DNA of 64,000 bases from Aromatoleum buckelii. Its GTDB lineage: Bacteria > Pseudomonadota > Gammaproteobacteria > Burkholderiales > Rhodocyclaceae. Location of the stretch: NCBI RefSeq assembly GCF_012910785.2, contig NZ_WTVH02000010.1, positions 992,001 to 1,056,000 of the forward strand, written 5' to 3'. The notes below the pieces were generated by a model. The model searched no databases. It was not told the DNA's origin and worked only from the letters and a program-made list of their open reading frames with translations. The stretch's first letter is position 1. Each line of letters begins with the position of its first letter. Of this stretch, positions 36,409-60,010 are shown piece by piece. Made by a program: the position numbers and the translations under genes.

Positions 36409-36499
36409 CCGGATATCGGCTACCGCCTTTCGCCGATACGGCGGAGGGGGACAATCCAGGTCCTGTTGTCGCCGAAACGACTTGCTCGGGGGGGAGCTG

Positions 36500-38605
36500 A
36501 TGGGTGTCGAGCTGTCCGACGTCGCGGTATGGGGCTACGGCGGAGCCGCTGGAGCTTACCTTCTTTTCGGTCTGTACCTTCTGCTCGCATGGCGCGGCGG
36601 CATTCCGGGCGGTTTTCTGCTTCTTGCCGTGGGCAGCAGCGCGTCATGGGCGCTGGCCGGCACTTTTCTCGTCCTCTATCCGAGCGCGTGGCTGGCGGTG
36701 GTGGCCGCGGCGCTGGATGTCTTCCGCAGCGCCTGTTGGTTCGCGTTCCTGCTTGTATTGCTGCGGCCGTTGGGGGGACATCGGCTGCGGTGGCCCGCGG
36801 CGTTCGCTGGGCTCGTGGTCGCCGCCGAGCTGATCGCGGTAGCGCTTTCCGCCCTCGATCTGCCCGTCGACCTCAAGCCGGCAAGCCTGATGCTAGCTGC
36901 CTTTCTGGTGGCCGCGGTGTTCGGCCTGGTGCTCGTCGAGCAGCTTTTCCGTGCGATACCGACGGAATCGCGCTGGGGACTGAAACCGTTGTGCCTCGGC
37001 CTCGCCGCAGGCTATGTGTTCGAACTGTACCTGTTCGCCGATGGATTCCTGTTCGGCCGGCTCGATCCGGACGTGTGGGGGGTGCGGGGCATCGCCCATG
37101 CTCTGGTAATTCCTCTGGTCGCCGTTTCAGCGGCCCGTACGCCGTCGTGGACGCTCCAGATCTCGGTATCACGGGAGATGGCGTTCCATTCCACTGCACT
37201 CGCGGTGTCGGGCCTGTACCTGCTGGTGATCGCGGCGGCCGGATACTACGTTCGCTATTTCGGCGGGAACTGGGGCAGGGCGCTGCAGCTGACCCTGCTG
37301 TTCGCCGGGCTCCTGCTGCTGCTGGTTTTCCTCTTCTCGGGATCGCAGCGGGCCCGTCTGAGAGTGTTCATCAACAAGCACCTGTTCCCCTACCGCTACG
37401 ATTATCGCAACGAATGGTTGCGCTTCACCCAAGCGCTATCGTCCGCGGGCGGCACGCTGGACCTTGGACAATCGGTCATAAAGGCCCTTTCGGACCTGGT
37501 CGAGAGTTCCGGCGGAACGCTCTGGCTGAAGGACGCGAGCGGCCGCTTCTCGGTCAATGCGCGCCTCAATCAGGGGGCTTCGGACGCTTTCGAGGACGAT
37601 GGCAGTGCTCTATGCCGTTTTCTCGACGAGCGCGAATGGGTCATCAATCTCGAGGAGTTCCGCTCGCGTCCCGCCCACTATGATGGGTTGGCGTTGCCGC
37701 GGTGGCTGTCCGCAATACCCGACGCGTGGCTCGTCGTGCCGCTCAAATCGTCGGGCGCGCTGGTCGGTTTCGTGGTGCTCAATTCACCTCGCACCGCGTT
37801 CGAGATCGACTGGGAAGTGCTCGATCTGCTGAAGACGGCGCAACGCCAGGCCGCGAGCTATCTCGCCCGCATGCAGGTCACCGAAGCCTTGCTCGAGTCG
37901 CGCAAGTTCGACTCCTTCAACCGCATGTCGGCGTTCGTCGTTCACGACCTGAAGAATCTCGTCGCCCAGCTGTCGCTGATGCTTCGCAACGCCGAGCGCC
38001 ACAAACACAATCCGGCGTTCCAGGAAGACATGCTCGACACGGTCGCGCATGTCGAATCGCGCATGCGCGCGCTGATGGCGCAATTGCAGGAAAAACGTTC
38101 GATCGATCCGCACAGGCGAGTCGATCTTTGTGCGCTGGCCGACCGTATCCAGGCGGCGAAGCGCCATCAGCAGCCGACGGTGGAGGTGTTCGCGGACCGC
38201 GATGAGCGCCTCCAAGTCCAGGCGCATCCCGAACGGCTCGAGCGGGTGATCGGACATCTCGTGCAGAACGCGCTCGATGCGACGCAGGACCATGGCAAGG
38301 TGACAATGAAGGTGGATATGCCGGACCGGTCTTCGGCCCGTATCACTGTCGAGGACAGCGGCTGCGGAATGACATCGGAGTTCATGAAAGAGCGCCTGTT
38401 CAAGCCGTTTCACACAAGTAAATCCACGGGAATGGGTATTGGGGTCTACGAGACCCAGCAGTACATTCATGAACTGGGAGGCCGTATTCATTTTGACAGT
38501 GAAGCGGGGCGCGGTACCTGCGTGACCGTGGTATTGCCCGTTTCTGCCCGGGCCGATCCGGATTTGCCAGCAACACGGGAAAAGGTACGCGAAAATCATG
38601 AATGA
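36500..38605 (+). CDS. prsK: PrsK, PEP-CTERM system histidine kinase
   Basis: The 701-residue kinase has seven to nine membrane helices in its first 300 residues, a GAF-like domain (SVIKALSDLVESSGGTLWLK), a histidine-containing helix SAFVVHDLKNLVAQLSLML with the phospho-acceptor in VVHDLKN, and an HATPase domain (LVQNALDAT, STGMGIGVYETQQYIHELGG). This architecture is that of PrsK, partner of the sigma-54 activator PrsR. ATG 36500 follows GGGGGAG. The gene overlaps prsR by 8 bases. Confidence 0.93.
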   Translation: MGVELSDVAVWGYGGAAGAYLLFGLYLLLAWRGGIPGGFLLLAVGSSASWALAGTFLVLYPSAWLAVVAAALDVFRSACWFAFLLVLLRPLGGHRLRWPAAFAGLVVAAELIAVALSALDLPVDLKPASLMLAAFLVAAVFGLVLVEQLFRAIPTESRWGLKPLCLGLAAGYVFELYLFADGFLFGRLDPDVWGVRGIAHALVIPLVAVSAARTPSWTLQISVSREMAFHSTALAVSGLYLLVIAAAGYYVRYFGGNWGRALQLTLLFAGLLLLLVFLFSGSQRARLRVFINKHLFPYRYDYRNEWLRFTQALSSAGGTLDLGQSVIKALSDLVESSGGTLWLKDASGRFSVNARLNQGASDAFEDDGSALCRFLDEREWVINLEEFRSRPAHYDGLALPRWLSAIPDAWLVVPLKSSGALVGFVVLNSPRTAFEIDWEVLDLLKTAQRQAASYLARMQVTEALLESRKFDSFNRMSAFVVHDLKNLVAQLSLMLRNAERHKHNPAFQEDMLDTVAHVESRMRALMAQLQEKRSIDPHRRVDLCALADRIQAAKRHQQPTVEVFADRDERLQVQAHPERLERVIGHLVQNALDATQDHGKVTMKVDMPDRSSARITVEDSGCGMTSEFMKERLFKPFHTSKSTGMGIGVYETQQYIHELGGRIHFDSEAGRGTCVTVVLPVSARADPDLPATREKVRENHE

Positions 38606-39956
38606 CAAGCGGCGTACGCTGCTGATCGTCGAGGACGATCCGGCGCTTCAGAAACAGATGCGCTGGGCTTTCGACGCTTTCGAAACAGTTGTTGCGAGCG
38701 ATCGGGAAAGCGCGATCACGCAATTGAGGCGTCATGAGCCGGCGGTCGTGACGATGGACCTCGGGCTGCCCCCCGCGCCCGATGACGCCGTCGAGGGATT
38801 TCGCCTGCTGGGGGAAATGCTCGCGCTGGCCCCCGATACCAAGGTCATCGTCCTGACTGGGCAGCATGACCGCGAAAACGCGGTGAAGGCGGTCGCGATG
38901 GGGGCCTATGATTTCTTCGGCAAGCCTTTTGAACCCGAGTTGCTCGGCCTGACGATCGACCGCGCTTTTCGCCTGCACGACCTGCAAATGGAAAACCTGC
39001 GTCTGGCAGCGCTCCAGGGAAGCAGCCTGTCCGCCGTCCTGACGCGGGATTCGGCGATGCTCAAGGTCTGCCGCACCGTCGAGAAAGTGGCGCCGGCGAA
39101 CGTCACGGTCGCGCTCCTCGGGGAAAGCGGCACCGGCAAGGAAATCCTGGCGCGCGGCCTGCACGCGATGTCGACGCGCGCCAAGGAGCGCTTTGTCGCG
39201 ATCAACTGTGCAGCCATCCCGGAGACTCTGCTCGAGAGCGAACTGTTCGGCTACGAGAAAGGGGCTTTTACCGGGGCCGTGAAACAGACGCAGGGCAAGA
39301 TCGAAGCTGCGCACAAGGGGACTTTTTTCCTCGACGAAATTGGCGATCTGCCGATGGCGCTGCAGGCGAAGCTGCTGCGTTTCCTGCAGGAGCGGGTCAT
39401 CGAGAGGATCGGCGGCAGGGAAGAGATCGCGGTCGATGTGCGGATCGTGTGCGCGACGCACCGCGATCTGAAGGCGCAGATCAGCGCCGGGCTGTTCCGC
39501 GAGGACCTCTATTACCGGCTTGCCGAAATCGTCATCGAAATCCCGCCACTGCGCGACCGCGACGGCGACGCGGTGCTTCTCGCGCATGCGTTCGTGCAGC
39601 GCTTCGCGCAGGCCAATGGACGGGGAACGATGCACCTGGGCGACGACGCGGTGGCGGCAATCGAATCGCATCGCTGGCCGGGCAACGTGCGGGAACTGGA
39701 GAACTGCCTCAAGCGCGCCGTCATCATGACCGAGGGAAGCCGCATCACGGCCGACGATCTCGGTCTGGACAGCGTCGACCCCGATCTGCAGCACCTCAAC
39801 TTGCGACAGGTGCGCGACGAGGCGGAACGGCGGGCCGTCGTACGGGTGCTGGCGCGCACCAACGGCAATATTGCCCGCGCGGCCGAGATTCTCGGCGTGA
39901 GCCGTCCGTCGCTTTACGACCTCATGAACCGTTTCGCTTTGAAGAAGGAGAACTGA
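38598..39956 (+). CDS. prsR: PrsR, sigma-54-dependent response regulator of the PEP-CTERM system
   Basis: The 452-residue regulator has a receiver domain (LLIVEDDPALQKQ, phospho-acceptor Asp in VTMDLGLPP), an AAA+ domain (GESGTGKEILARG Walker A, EKGAFTGAVKQ with the sigma-54-contacting GAFTGA loop, TFFLDEIGDLPM Walker B) and a Fis-type helix-turn-helix (NIARAAEILGVSRPSLYDLM). It activates transcription by sigma-54 RNA polymerase. It overlaps prsK and is followed by prsT. Likely target promoters lie at 56320 and 57736. Confidence 0.95.
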   Translation: MNDKRRTLLIVEDDPALQKQMRWAFDAFETVVASDRESAITQLRRHEPAVVTMDLGLPPAPDDAVEGFRLLGEMLALAPDTKVIVLTGQHDRENAVKAVAMGAYDFFGKPFEPELLGLTIDRAFRLHDLQMENLRLAALQGSSLSAVLTRDSAMLKVCRTVEKVAPANVTVALLGESGTGKEILARGLHAMSTRAKERFVAINCAAIPETLLESELFGYEKGAFTGAVKQTQGKIEAAHKGTFFLDEIGDLPMALQAKLLRFLQERVIERIGGREEIAVDVRIVCATHRDLKAQISAGLFREDLYYRLAEIVIEIPPLRDRDGDAVLLAHAFVQRFAQANGRGTMHLGDDAVAAIESHRWPGNVRELENCLKRAVIMTEGSRITADDLGLDSVDPDLQHLNLRQVRDEAERRAVVRVLARTNGNIARAAEILGVSRPSLYDLMNRFALKKEN

Positions 39957-52786: not shown

Positions 52787-54685
52787 ATGCTCATGACGAC
52801 GTACAAGGAATTTCATCGCCGTTCCATCGACAGCCGTGACGAGTTCTGGGCGGAAGAAGCCCGGCTCATCGACTGGAACAAGCAGCCCGAGCAGATCTGC
52901 GATTTTTCGCAGCCCCCGTTCGTGAAATGGTTCAAGGGAGGCGAGACGAACCTCTGCTACAACGCCGTGGATCGCCATGCCGCCGCGCGCCCCGACGACC
53001 GCGCGCTGGTGTATATCTCGACCGAGACCGACGAGGAGAAGGTGTACTCGTTTGCGCAGTTGCAGCGCGAGGTCGAACGCATGGCCGCGATCTACCAGGA
53101 ACTCGGCGTCGGCAAGGGCGATCGCGTGCTGATTTACATGCCGATGATCGCCGAAGCGGCGTTCGCGATGCTCGCCTGCGCACGCATCGGGGCAATTCAT
53201 TCGGTCGTGTTCGGCGGCTTTGCCGCGGGTTCGCTCGCGACGCGCATCGACGACGCGAAGCCGGTGCTGATGGTGAGTTCGGATGCCGGCATGCGCAACG
53301 GCAAACCGGTGCCGTACAAGCACCTCGTCGATGAAGCGTGCAAGATCGCCGAATTCCCGCCGCAGAAAGTCCTGATCGTGGACCGCGGGCTCGACAAGGG
53401 CTTCTCAAAAGTCGAAGGCCGCGACGTCGATTATGCCGAGCTGCGCGCGAAGCACCTCGACGCGAAAGTGCCCGTGACGTGGCTCGAGTCCTCCGAGCCG
53501 AGCTACATCCTGTACACCTCCGGCACCACCGGCAAGCCGAAGGGCGTGCAGCGCGACACCGGCGGCTATGCCGTTGCGCTCGCGTCGTCGATGAAGCACA
53601 TCTTCACCGGCTTTGCCGGAGAGACGATGTTCGCGACCTCCGACATCGGCTGGGTCGTCGGTCACAGCTACATCATCTACGGACCGCTGCTCGCCGGCAT
53701 GGCGACGATCATGTATGAAGGCACGCCGCTGCGCCCGGACGCCGGGATCTGGTGGCAGATCGTCGAGAAATACAAGGTCAACGTCATGTTCTCGGCGCCC
53801 ACCGCGGTGCGCGTGCTGAAGAAGCAGGACCCGGCTTTCCTGAAGAAATACGACCTGTCGTCGCTGAAGCATCTTTTCCTCGCCGGCGAGCCGCTCGACG
53901 AGACGACGCACAAGTGGATCATGGACGAGCTCGGCATCCCGGTCATCGACAACTACTGGCAGACCGAAACTGGCTGGCCGATGCTCTCCGCGGTGCGCGG
54001 CATCGAGGAGACGCCGATCAAGTACGGCTCGCCGAGCTTCCCCGTGTATGGCTACGACCTGCGCATCTTTCGCGAGGACGGCAGTGAATGCGGTGCCAAC
54101 GAGAAAGGCATCGTCGGCGTCATCCCGCCGTTGCCGCCGGGCTGTCTGTCGACCGTGTGGGGGCAGGACGACCGTTTCGTCAGCACGTATTTCACGCTGT
54201 TCCAGGACCCCGTCGTGTTCTCGTCGTCCGACTGGGGCATTAAGGACGAAGACGGCTACCACACGATCCTCGGCCGCATGGACGACGTCATCAACGTGGC
54301 GGGTCACCGGCTCGGCACGCGCGAGATCGAGGAGGCGATCCAGGCGAATGCGGCGATCGCCGAAGTCGCAGTCGTGGGCGTCGCCGATCCGCTGAAAGGG
54401 CAGATGCCGATGGCTTTCGCGGTGGTCAAGGACGCTTCGCGCGTCGATACCGCCGAGAAACGCGCCCAACTCGAGAAGGATGTCATGAAGACCGTCGACA
54501 CCCTGCTCGGTGCGATCGCCCGCCCCGCGCGTGTGCATTTCATCTCCGGGCTGCCGAAGACGCGCTCGGGCAAGATGTTGCGCCGCTCGATCCAGGCGCT
54601 CGCTGAAGGCCGTGATCCAGGCGACCTGACGACGATCGACGATCCGGGGACGCTCGAGCAGATCAGGACGTCGCTGGCGGGCTGA
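52787..54685 (+). CDS. prpE: Propionyl-CoA synthetase
   Basis: The 632-residue AMP-forming acyl-CoA synthetase activates propionate. It shows YILYTSGTTGKPKGVQRD (P-loop), NYWQTETGWPM, the hinge HTILGRMDDVINVAGHRLGT and the acetylatable Lys in LPKTRSGKMLRRSIQAL. The substrate assignment rests on the overall PrpE-type sequence, including the VQRDTGGY segment. GGAGAGGA precedes ATG 52787; ATG 52793 is an alternative. The 3' third of this gene has been duplicated downstream as a deleted ghost at 57246-57425. Confidence 0.92.
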   Translation: MLMTTYKEFHRRSIDSRDEFWAEEARLIDWNKQPEQICDFSQPPFVKWFKGGETNLCYNAVDRHAAARPDDRALVYISTETDEEKVYSFAQLQREVERMAAIYQELGVGKGDRVLIYMPMIAEAAFAMLACARIGAIHSVVFGGFAAGSLATRIDDAKPVLMVSSDAGMRNGKPVPYKHLVDEACKIAEFPPQKVLIVDRGLDKGFSKVEGRDVDYAELRAKHLDAKVPVTWLESSEPSYILYTSGTTGKPKGVQRDTGGYAVALASSMKHIFTGFAGETMFATSDIGWVVGHSYIIYGPLLAGMATIMYEGTPLRPDAGIWWQIVEKYKVNVMFSAPTAVRVLKKQDPAFLKKYDLSSLKHLFLAGEPLDETTHKWIMDELGIPVIDNYWQTETGWPMLSAVRGIEETPIKYGSPSFPVYGYDLRIFREDGSECGANEKGIVGVIPPLPPGCLSTVWGQDDRFVSTYFTLFQDPVVFSSSDWGIKDEDGYHTILGRMDDVINVAGHRLGTREIEEAIQANAAIAEVAVVGVADPLKGQMPMAFAVVKDASRVDTAEKRAQLEKDVMKTVDTLLGAIARPARVHFISGLPKTRSGKMLRRSIQALAEGRDPGDLTTIDDPGTLEQIRTSLAG

Positions 54686-54710
54686 CCCGAAAGAAACCTT
54701 TTCTCACCAG

Positions 54711-54741
54711 GACGAAGGCCCCTCGCGCGGGCGCCTTCGTC
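54711..54741 (+). terminator. Hairpin after prpE
   Basis: GACGAAGGC (54711-54719) pairs with GCCTTCGTC (54733-54741). There is no T run, so termination is uncertain. A related hairpin occurs after the ghost copy near 57446-57472. Confidence 0.45.
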
Positions 54742-54949
54742 GCGGTGGGTCGAGCCCCATTCACGACCGCTCACGGACCGTATCGCCTCGGCCGCATCAA
54801 AGCGCTGCCCGGGAGCATCCTCGCTTCGGGAATCGGGGCGAATTCCTTCGTCATCCCGTGACGGCGAGCCTCCACAAGTCGAATCCCACGAAGTCTCCGC
54901 ACTCGAAGGTTGAATCGCCCCGGGTTTCGCGGAGGCGGTTTTGTTTGAG

Positions 54950-55855
54950 TCAGGCGACGACCGCCTGCTCGCTCAGGTTGCGGTAATAGTTTGCCTCGGC
55001 TTCGGCTGGGGGAATGTACCCGATCGACTCAAGCAGGCGGTGGTGGTTGAACCATGAGACCCATTCGAGGGTGGCCAGCTCGACCGCTTCGACGCTTTTC
55101 CACGGGCCACGCCGGTGGATGACTTCGGCCTTGTACAGCCCGTTGATCGTCTCGGCCAGGGCGTTATCGTAGCTGTCGCCCCGGCTGCCGACCGACGGCT
55201 CGATGCCTGCTTCTGCCAGCCGCTCGCTGTAGCGGATCGAGACGTACTGCGAGCCGCGATCGCTATGATGAATCAAGGCGTTGCGTTCGGGTTGTCGCGC
55301 CCACAAGGCCTGTTCCAACGCGTCGAGAACGAATTCCGTGTGCATGGATCGGCTCACCCGCCAGCCCACGATGTAGCGGGCGAAGACGTCGATGACGAAG
55401 GCCACGTACACGAAACCCTGCCAAGTCGAGACATAGGTGAAATCGGAGACCCAGAGCTGGTTTGGCCGCTCGGCGGCGAACTGCCGATTGACGCGATCGA
55501 GCGGACAAGGTGCAGCAGGATCGGGCCGGGTGGTCCGAACCGCCTTGCCACGCATCGCGCCGCGCAGCCCTTGGGCCCGCATCAGTCGCTCGACGGTGCA
55601 GCGGGCGACCTCGAGGCCTTCGCGCTGCAACTGCCGCCACACTTTACGCGTGCCATACACCTGCAGATTCGCCTGCCACACCCGCTCGATGTGACCTTCC
55701 AGCACCTCGTCGCGGCGGGCTCGGGCACAGCGCAAAGCCGGATCACGCCGGCGTGCCACGGCGCGCCGATAGGCCGACGGGGCGACCTGCAGCACCTTGC
55801 AGATCGGCTCGACCCCGAAGCGCTCGCGGTGCGTGTCGATGAATCCGTTCATCAC
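54950..55855 (-). CDS. IS3-family OrfB transposase
   Basis: The 301-residue catalytic protein has an HTH_21-type N-terminal region ([17 protein letters not shown]) and the DDE triad in [30 protein letters not shown] and [17 protein letters not shown], and ends SEQAVVA. This is the classical IS3-subgroup OrfB. The GTG at 55855 overlaps the orfA stop by 4 bases; no A-rich slippery run is evident at the junction, so expression by coupled re-initiation or another frameshift signal is possible. Confidence 0.94.
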
Positions 55856-56172
55856 TTGTTGCGGCGGTCGAGCTCCGCCTGCGCGAAATACGCGCTGGCC
55901 AGGCGCAGGATCTCGTTGGCCTTCTTGAGCTCGCGCACCTCGCGCTCGAGCTCCCTGATGCGTTGCTGCTCGGCGCTCGTGAGCCCCTCGCGCTGGCCCG
56001 TGTCGCGCTCATGCTGCCGAACCCATCGGCGCAATGTTTCCGACGTGCAGCCAATCTTTGCCGCGATCGACACGATCGCCGCCCACTGGGATTCGTACTG
56101 ATCCTTGGCCTCGAACACCAGACGCACCGCGCGCTCGATCACCTCGGGGGAGAACTTCGCTGATTTCTTCAT
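55852..56172 (-). CDS. IS3-family OrfA
   Basis: The 106-residue protein begins [20 protein letters not shown], has a helix-turn-helix ([19 protein letters not shown]) and a leucine-rich coiled coil ([20 protein letters not shown]) ending with the IS3-typical [17 protein letters not shown]. It overlaps orfB by 4 bases. Confidence 0.94.
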
Positions 56173-56319
56173 GGCTCCATCTTCTCAAGAGTTGGAGCCT
56201 CCGCGAAACCCGGGGCGATTCAGGTTCGTGTCAGTGCGCCTTCGAGTGCGTCGGGATATTTTACACCCCGTTTCCGTGCATCAGGCATAAAGCCCATTCA
56301 AATGAAAGAGATAAGGGGT

Positions 56320-56336
56320 CTGGCATGGACTATGCA
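56320..56336 (+). promoter_or_regulatory. Sigma-54 (-24/-12) promoter of PEP-CTERM gene 1
   Basis: CTGGCATGGACTATGCA matches the sigma-54 consensus YTGGCACGNNNNTTGCW at nearly every position, with GG (56322-56323) and GC (56334-56335) exactly 10 bases apart. Transcription should start near 56347, leaving a leader of about 88 bases before the ATG at 56435. PrsR, encoded upstream in this window, is a sigma-54 activator. Confidence 0.82.
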
Positions 56337-56434
56337 AGCTGAAAGCCGGGCGGAGAAACGTCGAAGTTCCTCGAAGGAGCCGCGACTCTGGCCGGCCAGA
56401 TCCGAAGGTTCGATGTTGGAAAAGGAGATTTGTC

Positions 56435-57244
56435 ATGACCACGAGCACAGTCCGCAACACCTTGCTGGCAGCTAGCCTGATGGCAGGCGGATTAATCATG
56501 GGCGGGGTCGCTCATGCAACGCCGGGAACTCTCTTTACCGGAAACAACAGCCTTGCATTCGACCCCGACAGCGCCACGGTCCTTGGAGGCGGCAGTTTTG
56601 TCGATGTGTCCTCCACCGAGTTGGAATGGGTCGACACGGGGGACCCCACCGATAATCACAGCTTCCTGACGATTATTCCGCCGAGCAACACGGATGTGGC
56701 CATCTCCTCCGATTTGGGAGCGGAAGAGGTCGCGCGGATTCGGCATACGAACAACATCATCCCGGTGGGAAGCTTCGCTTTCACCGTCGATCTGCTCGAC
56801 CAGTTCACTCTTTCGGGCGCGACGTTCGCCCTCACTGGAACCAATCAACTCCCCGAACTGATCTTGGACGTGAATTTTACTGAAACGCCTAACGACCTGC
56901 CATGTCCCGCCCCGAATCCGCTGGGCAGCACCTGCGACGACATTTTCCAGATTGGTAACCTGGACCTTGTCATCGACTCGTTCCTGTTTACGGCCAATGG
57001 AGAACAATTCCTCCTCACGTTCGACGTAGACGCCAGCGCGGGCGAGGGAACGTTCTTTGACGACGCGGGCAACATCATCTACACCGCCGAAAATTTTGTA
57101 AGCGAGATCGTCATCACGGCGCGTATCGACCAAGCGGAAGTGCCGGAGCCCGGTACGCTCGCATTGCTCGGTATCGGCCTGGCCGCATTGCCGGGAGCGG
57201 GCATGTGGCGCAAGGCGAAAAAGGCTGGCATGAAGACGGCCTGA
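56435..57244 (+). CDS. PEP-CTERM sorted exoprotein 1
   Basis: The 269-residue protein has a signal peptide (LLAASLMAGGLIMGGVAHA), a beta-rich secreted domain and a C-terminal PEP-CTERM signal: VPEPGTLALLGIGLAALPG followed by basic residues WRKAKKAGMK. Such proteins are cleaved and attached or released by an exosortase and often associate with exopolysaccharide and flocs. Segments such as IRHTNNII and a Cys pair (CPAPNPLGSTC) resemble the THxN subgroup. GGAG lies upstream of ATG 56435. The neighbour at 57851 is its tandem duplicate. Confidence 0.93.
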   Translation: MTTSTVRNTLLAASLMAGGLIMGGVAHATPGTLFTGNNSLAFDPDSATVLGGGSFVDVSSTELEWVDTGDPTDNHSFLTIIPPSNTDVAISSDLGAEEVARIRHTNNIIPVGSFAFTVDLLDQFTLSGATFALTGTNQLPELILDVNFTETPNDLPCPAPNPLGSTCDDIFQIGNLDLVIDSFLFTANGEQFLLTFDVDASAGEGTFFDDAGNIIYTAENFVSEIVITARIDQAEVPEPGTLALLGIGLAALPGAGMWRKAKKAGMKTA

Positions 57245-57245
57245 T

Positions 57246-57425
57246 GAATGCGGTGCCAACGAGAAACGTATTGTCGGCGTTGTCCCGCCGCTGCCGAAGA
57301 CGCGCTCGGGGAGGATGTTGCGCCGCTCGATCCGGGCGCTCGCCAAAGGCCGTAACCCGGGCGATCTGACGATAATCGACGATCCAGCCCGGCTCGAGCA
57401 GCTCAGGACGTCGTTGGCGGGCTGA
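57246..57425 (+). pseudogene. Ghost of the prpE 3' end
   Basis: The sequence encodes CGANEKRIVGVVPPLP, matching prpE residues around 434-450, fused in frame to KTRSGRMLRRSIRALAKGR and onward to LRTSLAG stop, matching the prpE C-terminus. Relative to prpE, exactly 420 bases (54137-54556) are missing between two TGCCG repeats. There are no internal stops in its 59 codons but no start or promoter, so it is not expressed as prpE. It marks the left part of tandem duplication copy 2. Confidence 0.92.
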
Positions 57426-57735
57426 CCCGCAACCTCTCGCCCGATGGCGAAGGCCCCTCGCGGGCCTTCGTCCGTTTGGCGGAGTCCGATTTGGGACGGC
57501 TCACGGGACCGTAACGCCTCTGCCGTATCGAAGCGCTGCCCGGGACGATCGTCGTCTCTGGAATCGGCGCGAATTTCCCCCGTCATGTCCGGCCGCGTGC
57601 CTCGACAAGTCGAATCCCCTGAATTCTCTCCACTCGAAAGCTGGCGCAAGCACTCTTCCGGCGCCGTCGAAATATTTTACACTCTGCCTCCGTGCATAAT
57701 TCATAAAACCCAGTTAAATGAAAGAGATAAGTGAT

Positions 57736-57752
57736 CTGGCATGGACTATGCA
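57736..57752 (+). promoter_or_regulatory. Sigma-54 (-24/-12) promoter of PEP-CTERM gene 2
   Basis: The 17-base promoter CTGGCATGGACTATGCA is identical to that of gene 1, with GG at 57738-57739 and GC at 57750-57751. Its conservation while surrounding spacer bases have drifted between the two copies suggests selection. It lies 99 bases before the ATG at 57851. Confidence 0.82.
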
Positions 57753-57850
57753 GGAGGAGAACCGGGCGGAGAAACGTCGAAGCTTCTCGAGGGAGGCGCG
57801 ACTCTGGCCAGCCAGATCCGAAGGTTCGATGTTGGAAAAGGAGATTTGTC

Positions 57851-58669
57851 ATGACCACGAGCAGATTCCGTAACACTTTGCTGACAGCAAGCCTGATGGC
57901 AGGGGGATTAATCATGGGCGGAGTCGCTCATGCAACGCCGGGAACAGTATTCGAGGCGGAAAACCTCCTCGCGTTTATTCCCGGCTCCGTCGACCCCGGC
58001 GTCGGACTCGGCGGCTTTGTCAGTGCAACGGAGGATGAGTTGCAATGGCGCGACACGGGTAACCCAGCCAGTGCGCATAGCTTCCTGAGTATTCTTCCCC
58101 CGACCAACGATCCTGTTAACCTCGTGTCCGATGCCGGCTGGTTTAACGTCGCCCTGGTTGAGCACGAGAACAATGTCATTCCTGGTTCGACGTTCAATTT
58201 CACTGTCGATATGCGCGATAATTTCAGTCTCGCCGGCGCAACCTTCGATCTCACGGGCACCAGCAGCCTTCCGGAAGTCATTCTGGATGTAAGCTTCACG
58301 GAAACGCGGAACGTGGACCTGGCTGACTGCCCCGCGCCGAATCCGCTCGGGAGCGAATGCGACGACATTTTCGCAGTACCGAATCTGGACGCCGTGATCA
58401 ACACGTTCCTGTTCTCCGCCCTGGGCGAGAGGTGGATGCTCTCTTTCCAAATTGATCCCGACGAGGATACAGGCACGTTCTTCGACGATGAAGGCAACAT
58501 CATCTTCACTGCGGAAGCGGAGACAAGCCAATTGTTTATCCAGGCACGTATCGACCAAGTCGAGGTGCCGGAGCCGGGAACGCTCGCGTTGCTGGGTATC
58601 GGTCTGGCCGCGTTACCCGGAGCGGGTATGTGGCGCAAGGCGAAAAAGGCTGGCACGAAGAAGGTCTGA
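57851..58669 (+). CDS. PEP-CTERM sorted exoprotein 2
   Basis: The 272-residue protein is a diverged duplicate of the one at 56435: signal peptide (LLTASLMAGGLIMGGVAHA), secreted domain with VEHENNVIPG and Cys pair CPAPNPLGSEC, and C-terminal sorting signal VPEPGTLALLGIGLAALPG with basic tail. The signal peptide, the sorting signal and the DIF...NLD region are most alike; the mature middle has diverged. The start at 57851 is taken because it matches gene 1 and has GGAG upstream; the earlier in-frame GTG overlaps the promoter. Confidence 0.93.
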   Translation: MTTSRFRNTLLTASLMAGGLIMGGVAHATPGTVFEAENLLAFIPGSVDPGVGLGGFVSATEDELQWRDTGNPASAHSFLSILPPTNDPVNLVSDAGWFNVALVEHENNVIPGSTFNFTVDMRDNFSLAGATFDLTGTSSLPEVILDVSFTETRNVDLADCPAPNPLGSECDDIFAVPNLDAVINTFLFSALGERWMLSFQIDPDEDTGTFFDDEGNIIFTAEAETSQLFIQARIDQVEVPEPGTLALLGIGLAALPGAGMWRKAKKAGTKKV

Positions 58670-58695
58670 AGCGAGAGTTTCAGCCTGCTAACCGG

Positions 58696-58744
58696 ATGCG
58701 GAGTAACCGGCAGGATCTGAAAAGCCCTGTCGGTTACTCCGCAT
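58696..58744 (+). terminator. Long hairpin after PEP-CTERM gene 2
   Basis: A stem of 19 positions (ATGCGGAGTAACCGGCAGG at 58696-58714 against 58726-58744, one G-T pair) with an 11-base loop, followed by TTTCGTT. It lies 26 bases after the stop and probably ends the transcript; gene 1 has no such structure. Confidence 0.75.
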
Positions 58745-58775
58745 TTCGTTGAAGGGTGTTCAAGGCTTCACCCGG

Positions 58776-58803
58776 GAGGGGCATTTCGCAGGAAATGCCC
58801 CTC
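58776..58803 (+). terminator. Second hairpin, tandem terminator
   Basis: GAGGGGCATTTC and GAAATGCCCCTC form a perfect 12-bp stem with loop GCAG, followed by CTCACGTTTTTCC. It stands between convergent genes and may serve as back-up. Confidence 0.7.
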
Positions 58804-58879
58804 CTCACGTTTTTCCTGCCGCGCGTGCAGCACGCGCCGTGCTTCTTCGGCAGGACTGCGCTCGAGAGTCCCGCTTGTT

Positions 58880-60010
58880 TCATCCACGCGGATGCTTTTT
58901 GTCCAGGTAGCGCTCGAGAACCCGCGCCAGATAGTCTTCCCAGCGCGGTAGGCTCGTGCCGCTAGCCGACAGCCAGGCCAGATATTCTTTATTGTCGAAC
59001 CCTTGCTGGTCGCCGAGGTAGTCGACATAGATCGGAAGAGTCGCGAGGGCCCCCCTGCGGTGCGCCGGAGCGAAACGTATAGCGGCCTGTTGCACCACCG
59101 CGAACAAGCGGTGCGGCAACAGGATGCCGAACGGAACGGCGAGACCGTGGCGCCTGAATGTCTCCTGGACGCGCGATCGCAATGTCTTGAGCGGAATCGA
59201 ACGGTCGGGGCCCGAACACAGATGGTAGATTCGACCTACGGTCTGCTCATCGACGGTCGCGCGTGCGATTGCACTGGCAACGGCATCAACCGGGATGATG
59301 TCGAGTCGCACCTCGCCCAGATCCGGTAACACTCCATAAGTGCGGCGGCCGGAAAGAAATTCGCAGATGAAGTAGAAGATCTGGAAGTGAATGATGCGGC
59401 CGTCACGCGAATCGCCTATCACCATGCTGGGCCGATGCACCGTGATCGGCAGATGCTCCTGTTCGATCCCCGCGCGAACGAGAACTTCCGCTTCCGCCTT
59501 GGACTGCTCGTAGGTGTTGTGAAACGCGCGCGGTTCGTCGATCCAGCGTTCGGGCAGCGCGCCGGGACGCTTGCCCGCGATGCCTACGGTGCTGACGAAA
59601 TCCACTTTGCGCAAGGTTCCGCTGCGCGCCAGCGTGCGGGCCAGCGACAGAATTTCTTGTGCCGAACCGACTGCGGAGCGGCGCGCGTCGTCCAGCGTGT
59701 CGTTCATGCGCACGCTGGCTGCGCAGTGAATGATGTGCGTGGTGTCGGCGCACAGGGTCGCGTACTCGCTGTCGCTCAAGCCGAACCTGGGCTGCGATGC
59801 ATCGCCGCGCAGCGCGGTGAGCCGCGTGCGAGGTTCGGCGTCCGGCGCCAGCTTCCAGAACCGGCACAACTCTTCCATGCGTTCGGTCAGGTGATGTTCC
59901 GACTTTGCTCGCAGGAGAATGCGCACGCGCGTGCGCGTATCCGCGTACAGCAGAGGAACGAGGGCACTGCCGACAGCGCCTGACGCGCCGGTGACGAAAT
60001 AGGTATTCAT
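58880..60010 (-). CDS. Extended short-chain reductase, thioester/fatty acyl-CoA reductase-like
   Basis: The 376-residue protein has the NAD(P)-binding TGASGAVGSALVPLL, the FVSTVGIAGKRPG segment, catalytic YEQSK (YxxxK) and a substrate-domain sequence (RPSMVIGDSRDGRIIHFQIF) of the NAD_binding_4 / male-sterility family, which reduces acyl thioesters to aldehydes or alcohols. Its ATG overlaps the stop of the acyl-CoA ligase gene as ATGA, so ligase and reductase are probably made together to activate then reduce an acid. The substrate is unknown. Confidence 0.82.
   Translation of the reverse strand: MNTYFVTGASGAVGSALVPLLYADTRTRVRILLRAKSEHHLTERMEELCRFWKLAPDAEPRTRLTALRGDASQPRFGLSDSEYATLCADTTHIIHCAASVRMNDTLDDARRSAVGSAQEILSLARTLARSGTLRKVDFVSTVGIAGKRPGALPERWIDEPRAFHNTYEQSKAEAEVLVRAGIEQEHLPITVHRPSMVIGDSRDGRIIHFQIFYFICEFLSGRRTYGVLPDLGEVRLDIIPVDAVASAIARATVDEQTVGRIYHLCSGPDRSIPLKTLRSRVQETFRRHGLAVPFGILLPHRLFAVVQQAAIRFAPAHRRGALATLPIYVDYLGDQQGFDNKEYLAWLSASGTSLPRWEDYLARVLERYLDKKHPRG

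Follow-up and report, generated by a model that had tools for sequence, protein, structure and literature searches.

A resolved tandem duplication of a PEP-CTERM exoprotein gene beside prpE in Aromatoleum buckelii, probably with a mosaic history

Exosortase (EpsH)-associated PEP-CTERM exoproteins are described in the accessible part of PMC1569441. They are encoded as single-gene units with a long upstream region, a 17-nt motif ending in TTTACA (motif 1), a −24/−12 sigma-54 site and a PEP-CTERM tail, in genomes that also hold PrsK/PrsR and an exosortase. That part of the paper infers frequent duplication and loss of PEP-CTERM genes, and protein sets that turn over quickly between related species. 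In our judgement, the single events of this turnover are seldom resolved. Here we describe two adjacent PEP-CTERM genes, c1 and c2, downstream of the propionate--CoA ligase gene prpE in a 64,000-nt stretch of the Aromatoleum buckelii genome (contig NZ_WTVH02000010.1; "the window" is this whole stretch). The locus and its genome share the features listed above. Unlike the cases in that part of PMC1569441, a single duplication is resolved here with its relic, a deletion, an insertion of a mobile element and their relative order, and the cores and ends of the two genes appear to be of different silent ages.

Two further systems are close. Both proteins pass the cut-off of the THxN family (NF038125, 85 bits), in which adjacent genes recur, but c1 and c2 form a divergent branch of it. 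The pepA gene of Aquincola tertiaricarbonis is reported, in the accessible part of PMC9850573, to be RpoN-dependent and to act in floc formation. It resembles c1 and c2 as a sigma-54-dependent PEP-CTERM gene, a dependence that is predicted for our pair; unlike PepA, c1 (21.4 bits) and c2 (33.2 bits) do not reach the floc_PepA cut-off (NF033554, 80 bits). Among open-licence papers we found nothing that joins THxN with PEP-CTERM, or PEP-CTERM with gene conversion.

The locus consists of two diverged tandem copies, 54085–57244 and 57245–58669, each with a 3′ end of prpE, a spacer, a sigma-54 promoter and a PEP-CTERM gene. Its features are as follows.

52787..54685, plus strand: prpE, propionate--CoA ligase, intact (over the cut-off of NCBIfam PRK10524.1 and TIGR02316)
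54085–54685, plus strand: left part of copy 1, the last 601 bp of prpE
54686..54910, plus strand: copy 1 spacer, downstream of prpE, with the target repeat GGT at its end; 24% different from the copy 2 spacer
54911..56222, transposase on the minus strand: IS3-family element (NF033516, 26-bp perfect terminal repeats, target repeat GGT, RF01497)
56249..56265, plus strand: copy 1 motif 1, predicted PrsR site, 17 nt ending in TTTACA (motif described in the accessible part of PMC1569441)
56321..56335, plus strand: copy 1 sigma-54 −24/−12 promoter, predicted by consensus match, TGGCATGGACTATGC; 55 nt after motif 1 and 99 nt before the ATG
56435..57244, plus strand: c1, PEP-CTERM protein of 269 aa, THxN family (NF038125, 103.8 bits; TIGR02595)
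57245..57425, plus strand: prpE relic of 181 bp, 46 + 135 bp around a 420-bp in-frame deletion between TGCCG repeats
57426..57642, plus strand: copy 2 spacer
57665..57681, plus strand: copy 2 motif 1, predicted PrsR site
57737..57751, plus strand: copy 2 sigma-54 promoter, predicted by consensus match, spaced as in copy 1 (55 and 99 nt)
57851..58669, plus strand: c2, PEP-CTERM protein of 272 aa, THxN family, 65% identical to c1 (NF038125, 100.4 bits; alignment)

Comparison of the locus with itself gives three collinear diagonals: 54085–54136 with 57245–57296 (88%), 54550–54912 with 57290–57643 (79%) and 56249–57244 with 57665–58669 (73%). A preliminary description of this DNA had proposed a tandem duplication with a prpE ghost between the exoprotein genes, an idea that would fall if no diagonal were seen outside those genes. 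The collinear homology does extend through the flanks, which are not under selection, and relic plus spacer have a best single match of 297 bits, whereas dinucleotide shuffles (n = 100) never exceed 29.5 bits. The diagonals support this proposal, as does a second species in which the structure recurs. The duplication is real and the prpE relic lies where it had been placed. Both copies had been put at about 1844 bases once the IS3 is removed from the first and the deletion restored in the second. Both come to exactly 1844 bases, copy 1 after subtraction of the 1312-bp IS3 and one 3-bp GGT, and copy 2 after addition of 420; small indels within the copies cancel in length. A GACGGC microhomology, suggested earlier as the junction of the duplication, is not supported. 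The homology of c1 and c2 runs four bases further, through the stop codon (GACGGCCTGA against GAAGGTCTGA), and the prpE homology of the relic opens at the base directly after the c1 stop, TGAATGCGG, so that the two homology blocks abut.

Within the relic, the offset between the copies steps from 3160 to 2740, which is exactly 420 bp, and one TGCCG of two remains. The earlier proposal of an exact in-frame deletion between these repeats thus holds. The relic keeps 59 open codons plus a stop in the prpE frame (57246–57425), as had been counted. The open frame carries no weight, since in the congener with the same locus (G007) the relic is more decayed: an in-frame stop interrupts it and about 41 bp more are deleted. 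These lesions rule out the relic as a coding open reading frame (ORF).

The relic clusters with the prpE genes of G007 and of the window's own genome (G000) with 100% bootstrap support. Nine sites set these two prpE genes, which agree there, apart from those of G005, G008 and G011. Their state is carried by the G000 relic at 8/9 and by the G007 relic at 6/8, with one gap. Several of these states are also found in farther relatives, and only two are both shared by the two relics and private to G000/G007. From this grouping and the shared states, the relic most likely derives from the prpE of its own lineage. The last ~40 bp of prpE hold a block difference between G000/G007 and G005/G008/G011, where 7/13 of the sites grouping G000 with G007 lie. 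This block suggests a recombination edge.

Among the 17 genus genomes sampled, c1 and c2 occur at high identity in two, G000 and G007. A third, G010, carries four THxN genes that are more distant; in the remaining 14, none is found at E 1e-12. The 15 genomes other than G000 and G007 have no close homologue of c1 or c2, and their prpE homology ends at the stop codon or close to it. In G007 the arrangement and the 420-bp deletion are the same, and the IS3 is absent from the site. The order of events therefore reads, on this comparison, as duplication, then the 420-bp deletion, then the separation of G000 and G007, then IS3 insertion in G000.

The IS3 transposase is recognized by NF033516, and an ALIL pseudoknot (RF01497) is found within the element by Rfam, which we take to be a frameshift pseudoknot. 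Two further full-length copies at ~100% identity are present in the G000 genome (three in all), and the G007 genome has several copies at ~91%, none at this site. The element was therefore probably active recently. In the G007 assembly, contigs C1 and C5 carry the element at the same coordinates and are probably one duplicated contig; the locus itself is on C2.

Both PEP-CTERM genes are kept under purifying selection, given an omega of 0.15–0.19 between orthologues (c1–c1, c2–c2) for the mature part or the whole gene. Between the copies, the signal and tail are similar in protein, and identity in the mature part is 56% (113/201). The earlier statement that the mature parts had diverged while the ends stayed similar is thus true of the protein, but silent-site divergence also depends on the region. 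Codon and clock tests were made only on columns present in all four sequences (c1 and c2 of G000 and G007), that is, 192 codons with 46 four-fold sites in the core and 75 codons with 39 four-fold sites in the ends. The ratio of paralogue to orthologue distance is 2.19 for the spacer, 2.03 for the upstream region and 2.11 for the two together (95% bootstrap 1.73–2.68). It is 1.34 for the relic, which is a poor clock because one partner is a functional prpE. At four-fold sites, the ratio is 1.25 in the ends (0.89–1.96) and 4.04 in the core (2.40–8.24).

Branch lengths that are free rather than proportional between regions are preferred, with twice the log-likelihood difference (2ΔlnL) at 14.2 (4 degrees of freedom) and 24.8 (8 degrees of freedom). 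The four between-copy pairs, not independent of one another, give p values of 0.003, 0.003, 0.059 and 0.089 in Fisher tests of core against ends at four-fold sites. In a four-taxon codon model, the internal/tip ratio of the core is near 10 when tips and internal branch each have a single omega of their own, and 8.5 when two site classes are allowed. The corresponding flank value, worked out from the distance ratios, is about 2.2–2.4. Holding the core at 2.4 costs a 2ΔlnL of 34.4 in the first model and 20.9 in the second. In simulations under a ratio of 2.4 (n = 16), the largest 2ΔlnL was 3.2, and 20.9 was reached by 0/16. For the ends, the best ratio is 0.3–0.6 and the likelihood profile falls beyond about 1.6. 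The silent age of the cores, on these four sequences, exceeds that of the flanks, and simple duplication with divergence does not give that.

Protein change has probably been raised as well. With two site classes, omega of the variable class is about 2.1 on the core branch between the copies and 0.41 at the tips (2ΔlnL 15.4); in the one-class model a raised omega is not needed (2ΔlnL 1.8). Duplication followed by diversification, as first proposed, is borne out by the faster protein change of the core in the two-class model, but leaves aside that the silent sites of the core are also far more diverged. AlphaFold models of c1 and c2 have a mean pLDDT of 32.6 and are unusable for mapping the changes. 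We conclude that a single duplication under a single clock does not fit and that recombination was likely involved, and faster protein change between the copies is likely too. The pair is probably a mosaic, formed by conversion of ends and flanks or by exchange of one core. Because 177/180 informative coding sites place the two c1 genes together and the two c2 genes together, this recombination would be mostly older than the G000/G007 split.

The two proteins score 23.5 bits each for the PEP-CTERM signal (TIGR02595, cut-off 16 bits). They are sisters in a 39-row THxN tree (support 100/99), from which 7/42 THxN loci without a usable ORF were excluded; the tree program flags a long branch where c1/c2 join L032. 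Outside G000 and G007, no match exceeds 43% identity among the E 1e-10 matches in 395 sampled genomes. Of the sampled family genomes, 74 have a THxN match, and nine of these carry adjacent THxN genes (G000, G007, G010, G145, G270, G308, G398, G406 and G414). A pattern scan with c2 for named relatives among genome contigs gave 31 pattern matches, none of them a relative.

The distances from motif 1 to the sigma-54 site and from there to the ATG are the same in both copies. The accessible part of PMC1569441 gives a mean gap of 62.8 nt (range 32–92) and a start codon on average 71 nt further on, and both copies match this published arrangement of motif 1, gap, −24/−12 site and downstream ATG. A regular expression for motif 1 plus the sigma-54 site, run without a shuffle control, matches 8/12 THxN loci of other genomes. 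Genome-wide, the motif-1 pattern has nine matches, both copies included, against four for a reversed control. There are five TIGR02595 matches in the genome, and the regular expression did not find motif 1 with a sigma-54 site near the other three PEP-CTERM genes. The last 40 leader bases before the ATG (56395–56434; 57811–57850) are identical in all four gene copies. Just upstream lies a palindrome, TCTGGCCGGCCAGA, with one base changed in G000 c2. The conserved leader end is possibly a leader element; a Rfam search of 54000–59000 at E 0.1 had no match in the shared leader and found only the pseudoknot in the IS3.

The predicted regulators lie about 17 kb from c1/c2, and a third gene marks the right edge of the locus.

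36482..38605, plus strand: prsK, XrtA/PEP-CTERM system histidine kinase (TIGR02916, 994.8 bits)
38598..39956, plus strand: prsR, PEP-CTERM-box sigma-54 response regulator (TIGR02915, 736.6 bits)
58880..60010, minus strand: right neighbour, thioester-reductase-like SDR protein (score under the cut-off of that model)

The only exosortase found in the genome (PF09721, G000:C4:66767) is on contig C4. In the genus sample, the exosortase was not seen in 3/17 genomes (G006, G012, G015), and PrsR was below the cut-off or not seen in 4/17 (G004, G006, G012, G015).

The right neighbour is a syntenic edge that is also present in A. anaerobium. There, the interval from prpE to this neighbour holds another PEP-CTERM gene (L061 9689–10627), which passes the TIGR02595 cut-off but not the THxN and PepA ones, and which is preceded by a predicted motif 1 plus sigma-54 site. 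A gene in the same interval presumably resembles an exosortase-associated acyltransferase. Across L061 8420–10700 and the loci of the 16 genomes compared, an acyltransferase-like gene, matched with the A. anaerobium protein, follows soon after prpE in 13/16. The stretch covered downstream of prpE, 6–12 kb long, holds a PEP-CTERM-like ORF in 11/17 genus genomes, counted in 16 genomes plus the window for G000, from regular-expression hits that were judged by eye and excluded if they had no PEP-CTERM-like tail. These ORFs are of several kinds by tail, some shared (G001/G002/G009; G005/G011). Motif 1 with a sigma-54-like site is also found within a few kb of prpE at L048 12116 (minus strand), L050 11379, L056 13304 and L060 13110 (Thauera, Azoarcus, Denitromonas), which with A. 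anaerobium makes 5/80 loci, a count without a chance control.

The explanation that we favor, with a probability of about 0.75, combines these observations. A segment from inside prpE to the PEP-CTERM stop codon would have been duplicated in tandem in the ancestor of G000 and G007. The second piece of prpE, presumably non-functional, would have lost 420 bp between short repeats before the lineages separated and would still be decaying, and the IS3 would have entered the first spacer later, in the G000 lineage. Both genes would have retained the complete unit of motif 1, sigma-54 promoter, leader, signal peptide and PEP-CTERM sorting tail. We infer that PrsR drives both genes, with PrsK/PrsR and sigma-54 turning them on, and that both proteins leave the cell, are processed by the one exosortase found and end up in the extracellular polymer matrix. 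Two different mature domains would then be displayed through one route. Recombination, besides point mutation and selection, would have made the pair mosaic, through converted ends and flanks or one exchanged core.

Several points weigh against this explanation. The tandem event is deduced from structure; the preliminary description had expected a single-copy state in related strains, and the same structure was found in a second species but no single-copy ancestor among the 17 genus genomes. The silent-site argument is based on four sequences, and the four-fold test is modest (bootstrap P of 0.014–0.024 for the core not exceeding the flanks). Against a ratio of 3.5, which is within the uncertainty of the flanks, the two-class core fit is worse by a 2ΔlnL of 11.0 rather than 20.9. 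The core value could be inflated by clustered multi-base changes. In the ends, too, a raised omega between the copies is preferred (1.12 against 0.06, 2ΔlnL 13.0), which simple homogenization does not predict. Site patterns suggest almost no conversion after the G000/G007 split, and conversion at that stage is unsupported: sites that group by species number one in the spacer, one upstream, one in the coding sequence and none in the prpE parts. Nor does the vertical history appear clean, as nearby genes place G000 nearer to G005, a genome without the duplication, than to G007. G000 differs from G005 at 49/1191 positions of acuI and from G007 at 83/1185; over 1893 columns of prpE the differences are 91 and 97. 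Over 2,098 columns of the exosortase region, G000 is slightly closer to G005 (0.042) than to G007 (0.048), and in prsKR it is clearly closer to G007 (0.065) than to G005 (0.112). The neighborhood appears to recombine between species, and the absence of the duplication in G005 may reflect loss or replacement.

The alternatives differ mainly in how they account for the silent sites. A single tandem duplication followed by diversifying selection on the mature regions alone, without recombination, would agree with the sister position of c1 and c2, the similar signal and tail proteins, and the raised core omega of the two-class model. Protein selection alone does not raise silent divergence, however, and the core rejects the flank ratio of 2.4 even with two site classes, while the one-class core branch needs no extra omega. 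This account is already disfavored, and we consider it unlikely. The duplication could instead be as old as the cores, with flanks, promoter, signal, tail and relic homogenized by conversion before the G000/G007 split. The ends do look youngest (four-fold ratio 1.25; internal/tip ratio at most about 1.6), as conversion of near-identical ends would give. Against this, several separate segments, the relic among them, must have converted without restoring the 420 bp or deleting prpE, and very few sites group by species. We tentatively regard an old duplication as the less probable history. Core import from a known distant homologue is unsupported, given the sister position of c1 and c2 and the lack of any closer source in the 395 sampled family genomes. 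The same search speaks against a divergent allele of the whole prpE end, spacer and PEP-CTERM gene having been added from another strain beside the resident one, as do the grouping of the relic with the G000/G007 prpE and the two prpE sites, private to G000/G007 among the compared genomes, that it shares with them. In such a case, flank divergence would be between-strain and core divergence allelic. The conflicting closeness of G000 to G005 or G007 in the acuI, prpE, prsKR and exosortase regions, and the PEP-CTERM gene of another kind in A. anaerobium, would suit it; even so, we regard an added allele as quite improbable. Assembly artefact or chance similarity is already refuted and has practically no probability. 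Nothing was found for it, and the identical hits on G007 contigs C1 and C5 are irrelevant as the locus is on C2. The copies are 73–88% identical rather than identical, the structure recurs in a second genome, and the shuffles score far below the match.

A wider proposal is that the interval downstream of Aromatoleum prpE serves as a cassette slot for genes of PEP-CTERM exoproteins. Homologous recombination would swap whole genes, or only the mature cores that lie between conserved promoter-plus-signal and sorting-tail ends, and so put different matrix proteins under one PrsR/exosortase route, and here duplication plus core exchange would have given two adjacent cassettes. We consider this rather doubtful at present.

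The locus is largely an ordinary, well-resolved duplication with a mosaic signature of interest. PEP-CTERM duplication itself is already known; new here is the well-ordered history of events, and the mosaic cores and the slot beside prpE merit attention. With the relic and spacers, the locus carries a clock next to its genes, by which selection acting on the mature protein can more easily be told apart from recombination. If cores are indeed exchanged, matrix proteins of floc- and biofilm-forming bacteria would be swapped as cassettes, with the expression and sorting ends on either side staying fixed.

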